A program made the position numbers and the translations under genes. This document shows positions 6,148 to 8,160 of a stretch of DNA of 64,000 bases, one piece after another. This DNA comes from Halobaculum roseum (GTDB lineage: Archaea; Halobacteriota; Halobacteria; Halobacteriales; Haloferacaceae), in NCBI RefSeq assembly GCF_019880245.1, contig NZ_CP082286.1:2436521-2500520 (forward strand), written 5' to 3'. Positions within the stretch are counted from its first letter, which is position 1. The number at the start of each line of letters is the position of its first letter. The notes below the pieces were generated by a model that had not been told where the DNA came from, did not search any database, and saw only the letters and a list, made by a program, of their open reading frames with translations.

Positions 6148-7122
6148 CTACTCCAGTCGAGCCACGTCGGCCAGCACGGCGCTGGCGGTCTCCTCGCCGC
6201 CGGCGCCGCGCCCGGAGATGGCGAGCCCCCCCGCGTACTCGTGGTCGATCTCGACGATGTTTCGCGTGCCGGTCACCGACAGCGTGCCGTTCTCCGGGAC
6301 CAGCCGCGGGCCGACGCTGACGCCGTCGCGGGTCGCCTCGCCGACGAGCCGGACGGTCCGCCCGTCCTCGGCCGCCAGCTCCAGCGCGCTGCCCGGGATG
6401 TCGCGGATCCCCTCCACGTCGGCGTCCGCGAGCGTGACCGCGGCCTCGCGAAGCTCGTCGAGGGTGTCGCAGTCGGCCTCGCGCAACACGTTCGCCAGGA
6501 TGACGCACTTCAGCGCCGCGTCGGTTCCCTCCACGTCGAACGAGGGGTCCGCCTCCGCGACGCCCAGGTCCTGGGCCTCCGCGAGCACGTGGTCGTAGTC
6601 GAGGCCCTCGGCGGCCATCCGCGAGAGGACGAAGTTCGCCGTCCCGTTGAGCACGCCGCGAACCGCCGAGACGTGCTTCGCCCCGAGGTCGTCGACCGTC
6701 GCGCACACCGGAATGGCGCCGCCGACGGTCGCCTCGAAGTACACCTCGCCCGCGGAGTCGGCCTCCAGCGCGCGCACCTCGGCGTACCGCTCGGCGACCG
6801 GCCCCTTGTTCGCGAGCACGACGTGCTTGTCGCGCTCCAGCGCGGTGCGCACGTGCGAGAAGCCGGGCTCGGCGTCGCCCAGCGTCGTCGGGGTCGCCTC
6901 CACGAGCACGTCGTACTCGGCCGCTAGCGCGTCGCCCGGCGAGGCGCCGCCGAGCGCCTCCCCGGCGTCCTTGCGCGCGAGGGCGGCCTCCACGTCGACG
7001 CCGTCGGGGTCGACGACCGCCGACGACGAGTCCGCCAGCGCGGTCACCTCGTTGTCGTACTCGGGGGCCAACTCCGCGACCGCCCGGCCGACCGCGCCGG
7101 CGCCGAGGACACAGAGCCTCAT
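6148..7122 (-). CDS. hom: Homoserine dehydrogenase
   Basis: 324 aa. Catalyses NAD(P)H-dependent reduction of aspartate semialdehyde to homoserine, the branch to threonine, methionine and isoleucine. Visible: N-terminal Rossmann motif GAGAVG, ANKGPVA with the catalytic Lys region, the FEATVGGAIPV and GVLNGTANFVLSRM blocks, and DPSFDVEGTDAALKCVILAN. There is no C-terminal ACT domain; a separate ACT protein is encoded just upstream with a 4-nt ATGA overlap, suggesting regulation by a partner subunit. The leader-peptide-like ORF upstream of the operon suggests control by threonine/isoleucine supply. Confidence 0.95.
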   Translation of the reverse strand: MRLCVLGAGAVGRAVAELAPEYDNEVTALADSSSAVVDPDGVDVEAALARKDAGEALGGASPGDALAAEYDVLVEATPTTLGDAEPGFSHVRTALERDKHVVLANKGPVAERYAEVRALEADSAGEVYFEATVGGAIPVCATVDDLGAKHVSAVRGVLNGTANFVLSRMAAEGLDYDHVLAEAQDLGVAEADPSFDVEGTDAALKCVILANVLREADCDTLDELREAAVTLADADVEGIRDIPGSALELAAEDGRTVRLVGEATRDGVSVGPRLVPENGTLSVTGTRNIVEIDHEYAGGLAISGRGAGGEETASAVLADVARLE

Positions 7123-7748
7123 CGGCGGCCCTCCAGCGGCGCGATCACGTCGATGTCCTTCTCGGCGGCGACCTCCCGGACCGTCTCGATCACGCTGGCG
7201 GTCTCGCCGGCGTGTGCCCGCAGGCGAAGCCGGGCGCTGGAGTGCGCCGACGACCCGGCGCCCGCCGGCGCCGACAGGTCGATGTCGGCCACGGACGCCC
7301 CCGAGCAGTCCTGGATCTTCTTGAGCGTGTCCGACAGGTCCGTGTCCACGAGGTGGCCCACGAGGACGACCGTCACCTCGTCGCCGTACTCCTCGGCGTC
7401 GGCCTGGATCACGTTGACGCCGCGCTCCCGGAGGTCATCGAGGATCCCCTCGAACCGGTCGGGCGGACACTCGATGTCGACCTCGACGGGGATGCGTCCC
7501 CGCGGGGTGAGGCTCCCGCGCTCGTGGAAGATCGACAGCAGGTTCGCGCCGTTGTCGGCGATGGGTTTCAGCGCCCCGAGCAGCTGCCCCGGCTCGTCGA
7601 CCAGCTCGAGCCGGATCGTGTGCGCCTGCAGCTCCGTCTCGTGGCCGCCGTCCGTCTCCGCCGCGTCGTCGCCGTCACTCTCGGTACCGCCGTCGTCCGC
7701 CGCGTCCACCGGCTGCTCGTCGGGGGCTGGCGTCGACTCCGAGGGCAT
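7119..7748 (-). CDS. ACT-domain amino-acid-binding regulatory protein
   Basis: 209 aa. Residues 1-40 are an acidic linker. Residues about 43-120 form an ACT domain (IRLELVDEPGQLLGALKPIADNGANL) and the second half (about 125-209) looks like a further ACT-type module (VVLVGHLVDTDLSDTLKKI). ACT domains bind amino acids and control biosynthetic enzymes; the 4-nt overlap with hom makes it the likely regulatory partner of homoserine dehydrogenase. The ATG immediately follows the stop of the upstream 58-codon ORF (TAGATG), and GGAGG lies about 10 nt before the ATG inside that ORF, unusual in a mostly leaderless genome. Confidence 0.9.
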   Translation of the reverse strand: MPSESTPAPDEQPVDAADDGGTESDGDDAAETDGGHETELQAHTIRLELVDEPGQLLGALKPIADNGANLLSIFHERGSLTPRGRIPVEVDIECPPDRFEGILDDLRERGVNVIQADAEEYGDEVTVVLVGHLVDTDLSDTLKKIQDCSGASVADIDLSAPAGAGSSAHSSARLRLRAHAGETASVIETVREVAAEKDIDVIAPLEGRR

Positions 7749-7925
7749 CTATCGGGCCCTCCGTTCGTCCGCGCGCGTCCCCGTCGGCGCCGCGTCGTCG
7801 GCCGCCGCCGTCGAGCGTGTTCCGTCGGGGGGTGTGGTCGTGGACCCGATAATTGTGATCGGCGTGCGGGGCTGGGTCGCTCGTTCGCAGCCGTCGCGCC
7901 GACCGTGGGTCGTGCCACTTGGCAT
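7749..7925 (-). CDS. Candidate Thr/Ile-rich leader peptide of hom operon
   Basis: 58 codons starting MPSGTTHGRR. Its centre reads TPITIIGSTTTPPDGT: nine of sixteen residues are Thr or Ile, the end products of the pathway encoded next, much as in the enterobacterial thr leader. This stretch also uses ACA and ATT, rare codons in such high-GC DNA. A TATA-like box (7951-7956) lies about 28 nt before the ATG, so this ORF is the natural first, leaderless cistron. Its stop touches the next start (TAGATG), and the ribosome-binding sequence for the ACT gene lies within its last codons. Inference: ribosome slowing at Thr/Ile codons could govern coupling or mRNA folding. It could also be a chance ORF. 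Confidence 0.45.
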   Translation of the reverse strand: MPSGTTHGRRDGCERATQPRTPITIIGSTTTPPDGTRSTAAADDAAPTGTRADERRAR

Positions 7926-7949
7926 AGTTGTCCTGTGTAGACGGGGAGG

Positions 7950-7957
7950 TGATAAGC
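7950..7957 (-). promoter_or_regulatory. TATA-like box before the leader ORF
   Basis: CTTATC on the minus strand (7951-7956) sits in GC-rich DNA with its centre about 28 nt before the ATG at 7925, the spacing of leaderless haloarchaeal promoters. A further AT-rich spot (7849-7856) lies within the leader ORF and coincides with its ATC-ACA-ATT-ATC codons. Confidence 0.5.
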
Positions 7958-8160
7958 CTTCCACCGTGGCGATGCTTGCCAGTGTTCGAACGATCCTGTG
8001 AGATCTCCGACGGTCTCTCGGCGGATCGAGGGTCTCGCCGACGGTTCGTCGGCCGCGTCGACGGTTCGTTCGCCGGCAGCACCGCTCGTTGGGGGAGCCA
8101 GCGGGAGAGCGCCGGAGAGAAAGACAGACCGAGACCGACCGCGGCGGTCGGCGCGGGACC

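Follow-up and report, generated by a model that had tools for sequence, protein, structure and literature searches.

A short upstream open reading frame (uORF) precedes the genes for an ACT-domain protein and homoserine dehydrogenase on the minus strand of the window, the stretch of 64,000 nucleotides analysed here, whose source belongs to the genus Halobaculum of the Haloferacaceae. The product of hom gives a firm Pfam match (Homoserine_dh, E 6.6e-47); that of the ACT gene is matched slightly below the family cut-off (ACT, E 7.2e-06). The two genes overlap by ATGA, and the genes that flank them match translation elongation factors in Pfam, EF-2 upstream and EF-1A downstream. From the promoter side onwards, the features of the locus are the following.

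7967..7981, minus strand: candidate element TGGCAAGCATCGCCA, 5' of the promoter, an imperfect inverted repeat (TGGC..GCCA) that is near-invariant in 11 Halobaculum genomes.
7951..7956, minus strand: TATA-like box CTTATC, by sequence; CTTATA or CTTATC stands at ~31 nt in most Halobacteria loci.
7749..7925, minus strand: putative leader peptide uORF, 58 codons from ATG to TAG; start, promoter and stop/start junction are kept across genera.
7860..7901, minus strand: candidate hairpin P2, CGGCG..GGCTG / CAGCC..CGCCG, just 5' of the control codons; found by inspection in Halobaculum, with modest covariation in its counterpart in the 34/35-codon class.
7848..7859, minus strand: putative control-codon run ATC ACA ATT ATC (Ile-Thr-Ile-Ile); by inspection, Thr/Ile codons, often rare, lie at the matching place in nearly all 30 genera.
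7833..7841, minus strand: second Thr cluster ACG ACC ACA, by sequence; it varies between species.
7757..7762, minus strand: Shine-Dalgarno-like GGAGGG of the ACT gene, within the end of the uORF, by sequence; GGAGG or GGGGG occupies the same place in relatives.
7119..7748, minus strand: ACT-domain gene (Pfam), 209 aa, first structural gene of the operon.
6148..7122, minus strand: hom, homoserine dehydrogenase (Pfam), 324 aa.

The uORF encodes MPSGTTHGRRDGCERATQPRTPITIIGSTTTPPDGTRSTAAADDAAPTGTRADERRAR. Its ATG at 7925 lies 31 nt downstream of the CTTATC at 7956-7951, which is the geometry of a leaderless promoter, and its TAG at 7749 directly abuts the ATG of the ACT gene, 8 nt 5' of which stands the GGAGGG. 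Nine of the sixteen residues of its core, TPITIIGSTTTPPDGT, are Thr or Ile, with the codons ATC ACA ATT ATC and two more ACA. A preliminary description of this DNA had already pointed to the leaderless placement of the ATG, to the Thr/Ile content of the core with its ACA and ATT codons, to the TAG directly before the ACT start and to the overlap of the ACT gene with hom; all of this is confirmed. Of the limits it had set, 7749 and 7957, the former stands, and the latter reaches beyond the uORF and takes in the TATA box.

In bacteria, thr operons have Thr/Ile-rich leader peptides for attenuation, and regulation through ribosomes that pause within leader peptides is textbook material there. Threonine and isoleucine are the end products of the branch that homoserine dehydrogenase opens. 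The same description had taken the uORF for a Thr/Ile leader peptide of this kind, an identity that receives strong support from the comparison across the class and from analogous leaders at ilvB, pheS and trpS.

Within the genus, all ten of the other Halobaculum genomes agree almost to the letter in the promoter and over the uORF from its ATG to codon 28 (~80 nt). Every fourfold site of codons 2-28 is invariant among them (12/12), as against 15/88 in the ACT gene, and the nucleotide sequence itself is therefore constrained. The tail of the uORF drifts, taking 8 distinct lengths in Halobaculum and 15 in a Halorubrum-like genus; despite this drift the stop keeps its place at the ACT start, in Halobaculum exactly there or 1 nt before it.

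For the class as a whole, our sample comprises 162 ACT-hom loci of Halobacteria and 40 further upstream regions. A strict scan, defined by a TATA-like box, an ATG 26-35 nt further on and a stop near the ACT start, finds a uORF at 109 of the 162 loci. In one family mostly missed by it, a relaxed scan recovers a uORF at 29 of 30 loci, in forms such as MTTCGRPQAGGVGDG. With a few more found by inspection the total is ~138/162, roughly 85% of the Halobacteria loci, and the TATA-to-ATG distance is ~31 nt. Most of the stops overlap the ACT start by 4 nt, where the window has a TAG abutting the ATG; the stop/start overlap or near-touch that marks gene pairs coupled by termination-reinitiation (TeRe) is thus present at the uORF-ACT junction. 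Length ranges from 17 to ~70 codons in the families with long forms and from 6 to 16 codons in other families, and peptides from different genera begin alike with M-x-[ST]-G-T. Some lineages (e.g. L030, L127) have a leaderless ACT gene and no uORF.

The short upstream ORF is conserved as an ORF, as one would expect of an attenuator. An alignment across Halobacteria had been proposed as a check, and its outcome agrees with the proposal: the TATA-to-ATG spacing and the stop/start junction are conserved while the tail drifts. Two local forms are worth recording. In one family (L043-L072) the conserved uORF is another one, M(T)TCGRPQ..G, whose overlap with the ACT start mostly measures 8 nt; two Thr codons follow its start, without a run. 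The uORF of a Halorubrum-like locus (L133) shows an apparent one-base deletion relative to its relatives, which may be an assembly error.

Composition was analysed on the long forms, 106 uORFs that come from 30 genera of two families, one of them the window's own; they were picked regardless of composition, except for three added by similarity to relatives. Threonine accounts for 15.2% of their residues in frame, compared with 6.5% and 8.1% in the other two frames and 6.6% in shuffles; for isoleucine the corresponding values are 3.6%, 0.3%, 1.1% and 1.5%. No other residue of the 20 is as strongly enriched (z 11.6 for Thr and 5.8 for Ile), and the excess is confined to the uORF frame; in 25 of the 30 genera, frame 0 has the highest Thr+Ile content of the three frames (binomial p 2e-8, genera treated as independent). 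What is enriched in frame, as in attenuators, are codons for the amino acids of the pathway. ACA and ATT had been called uncommon, and indeed they make up 3.3% of Thr and 11% of Ile codons in the ACT gene; in the long uORFs they reach 27% and 37%.

The run 3' of the candidate hairpin reads ACA ACA in many genera; its variants elsewhere are ACA ACA ACA, ACA ATT ACA, ATT ACA ATT ATT, ATT ACA ATC ACA and ATC ACA ATT ATC. Its nucleotides differ between genera and the encoded residues remain Thr/Ile. Common descent of a conserved RNA motif may account for part of the Thr/Ile signal. We rely on composition and frame as evidence because a simple search for a Thr/Ile motif is unspecific, with 7-10 of 26 matches at pheS and ilvB too. 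In the short uORFs of the other families the overlap is kept and no Thr/Ile enrichment is found (Thr 8.3%, Ile 1.7%), so Thr/Ile sensing is not universal. The enrichment expected in homologous regions is present in the long forms and absent from the short ones.

Similar leaders stand before other amino-acid genes. At ilvB, an upstream ORF is present in 26 of 26 genomes, mostly at leaderless promoter spacing; it carries the rare codons ATT and GTA and mostly ends in (I)IVGA, and its stop sits inside a conserved hairpin, GTAGGGGC..GCCCC (GGGGC..GCCCC; L237-L262). A second uORF, starting mostly 80-100 nt downstream of the GTA of the leader, overlaps the ilvB start in 22 of these loci. An upstream ORF that ends in GFGFFF or similar precedes pheS in ~19/26 genomes (L211-L236), and one with a WRW-type motif precedes the second trpS gene in 5/5 (L289-L293, L319-L321). 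The window's own genome carries both the ilvB (L248) and the pheS (L218) leader.

These leaders are cognate to their genes. Among the sets compared, the Phe pattern is exclusive to pheS (17/26 loci) and the branched-chain pattern to ilvB (12/26 loci), and the Trp pattern occurs at 5/5 second-trpS loci versus 0-2 elsewhere. Upstream of the controls trpE, thrC and hisG no such leader is seen, thrC being mostly leaderless itself. Motifs played a part in the choice of the ilvB and pheS loci, so the independent evidence comes from the cross-tests and the negative controls and not from the enrichment values of these two sets. Judged by sequence, the hom leader is one of a set in Halobacteria that also includes those of ilvB, pheS and the second trpS. 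The second trpS gene is on a plasmid in several species, and one main trpS locus (L296) has WRWRW. An inverted repeat GCAA-N3/4-TTGC, a possible regulator site, lies shortly upstream of the ilvB TATA box in many genera (e.g. L253, L247).

Two members of this set have published counterparts in H. volcanii: Table 2 of Babski et al. (PMC4983044) lists transcript uORFs before pheS (26 aa) and before the trpS gene HVO_A0127 (23 aa). The trpS leader of a Haloferax-like genome is also 23 aa long, MVSTSHANCWRWHVSREVDSIAV, and contains WRW; its mass is slightly off the value in PMC4983044, as expected because the species is another one. That Table 2 includes no hom uORF, and the section of the paper on uORFs mentions neither control codons nor attenuation. 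At ~108 nt, the hom leader of the Haloferax-like genome is shorter than the 150-250 nt UTRs examined there.

The preliminary description had further suggested that ribosomes slowing on the Thr/Ile codons could expose or hide the GGAGG of the ACT gene. In folds of 53 leaders with each codon masked in turn by a ribosome, a stall at the run does not raise the accessibility of the Shine-Dalgarno motif (a change of -0.006 +/- 0.021 there, and slightly below zero nearby), and simple exposure finds no support in this test. A competition of the CTCC in the 3' strand of P2 with the Shine-Dalgarno motif is attractive in several genera and fails as a general mechanism in two others (g20 and g49). The best-supported secondary structure is the hairpin just 5' of the run in the 34/35-codon class, where three pairs are changed on both sides, a modest signal; RNAalifold finds this class to form a short hairpin only. 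Folding energies are mostly not unusual, no Rfam family scores above its gathering threshold for the window region and 12 related loci, and no terminator hairpin with a T run is seen in the leader.

We interpret the uORF as a leader peptide with control codons that would sense the charging of tRNA-Thr and tRNA-Ile and affect ACT-hom, and put the probability of this reading at roughly 0.78. A real, conserved leader peptide that acts as an amino-acid sensor is what the comparison makes most likely, and the sensing step is well supported by it. The transcript would probably start at or just before the uORF ATG; ribosomes would therefore load at its 5' end, translate the uORF and terminate at the start codon of the ACT gene. 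The run of rare Thr/Ile codons would face them from codon 23 on, and a pause there would report the charging of both tRNAs and govern the number of ribosomes or transcripts that arrive at ACT-hom. We infer that the uORF is translated, that ribosomes pause in it at Thr/Ile shortage and that ACT-hom expression changes as a result.

The uORF is probably also the route by which ribosomes reach the ACT gene. This follows from the work of Huber et al. (PMC6728339), in which the pair of hom and ACT, the latter an amino-acid-binding protein, is strictly coupled in H. volcanii, and in which de novo initiation in the 5'-UTRs of haloarchaea makes no use of Shine-Dalgarno motifs; the second uORF that overlaps the ilvB start likewise supports a delivery of ribosomes through uORFs. 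With such strict coupling, and with a Shine-Dalgarno motif of no use de novo, a ribosome stalled in the uORF should mean less hom, the reverse of what classical attenuation does; an action of the pause on transcription or on structure could alter this.

If the uORF did nothing but deliver ribosomes, by leaderless initiation and termination-reinitiation, its Thr/Ile codons would have no sensing role. Such a device would account for a stop/start overlap (mostly 4 nt) that is more widespread than the Thr/Ile run, for the forms of 6-16 codons in other families, for the ACT-hom coupling in H. volcanii (PMC6728339) and for the second uORF at 22/26 ilvB loci. It leaves unexplained, however, both the enrichment of Thr/Ile and of rare ACA/ATT in a single frame and the Ile/Val, Phe and Trp of the ilvB, pheS and trpS leaders; we consider it unlikely.

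We give even less weight to the idea that a structured RNA, riboswitch-like or protein-binding, makes up the conserved first half, with Thr/Ile as a by-product of A-rich unpaired stretches. The invariant fourfold sites of codons 2-28 in Halobaculum and the partial covariation of the P2 hairpin in the 34/35-codon class would suit it, but the codons of the run switch between ACA, ATT and ATC from genus to genus and yet remain Thr/Ile, the stop/start junction is kept despite indels in the tail, Rfam gives no match and folding energies are mostly ordinary. That the product is a functional small protein and not a regulatory leader seems very improbable: beyond the M-x-[ST]-G-T start shared across genera, which speaks for it, one finds a drifting tail, a length of 17 to ~70 codons in the long-form families and ~10 codons elsewhere, no Pfam match, and an Arg/Thr-rich composition unlike that of folded proteins.

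Returning to the uORF as an amino-acid-sensing leader, a wider view can be put forward tentatively, at somewhat less than even odds: Halobacteria may possess a general and undescribed set of leaderless attenuators (hom, ilvB, pheS, trpS), independent of those of bacteria, which would work through a termination-reinitiation relay and not through terminators or Shine-Dalgarno masking. The preliminary description knew of no such leader in archaea, and we found no report of leader-peptide attenuation in archaea in the open-access literature, subscription papers lying largely outside the search. If the interpretation is true, a leader-peptide attenuator in archaea, with a leaderless start and stop/start coupling, would be new, and it would link the haloarchaeal abundance of leaderless transcripts and gene overlaps to a regulatory use. 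The sequence evidence points to a bacterial-type solution in Halobacteria at several amino-acid genes. As H. volcanii is genetically tractable, the idea is directly testable.

The codon runs of bacterial leaders are of Thr plus Ile for the hom branch, of Phe for pheS and of Trp for the trp genes. The attenuators of thrL and of ilv, pheST and trp resemble the leaders described here in that a short leader ORF, in which codons for the amino acids of the pathway itself form a run, stands before a biosynthetic or tRNA-synthetase gene, with the same pairing: Thr and Ile for the hom branch, Phe for pheS and Trp for trp genes. Unlike them, the haloarchaeal hom leader has a leaderless start, shows no terminator hairpin with a T run, and ends with a stop that abuts or overlaps the start of the structural gene; no homology is claimed. 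With the TeRe pairs of H. volcanii (PMC6728339) the uORF-ACT pair shares the stop/start overlap with an internal Shine-Dalgarno motif, whereas its upstream partner is a very short candidate leader peptide with control codons and not a structural gene. Finally, the uORFs in long 5'-UTRs of H. volcanii listed in Table 2 of PMC4983044 are, as here, small ORFs before pheS and trpS, and they lie on mapped transcripts.
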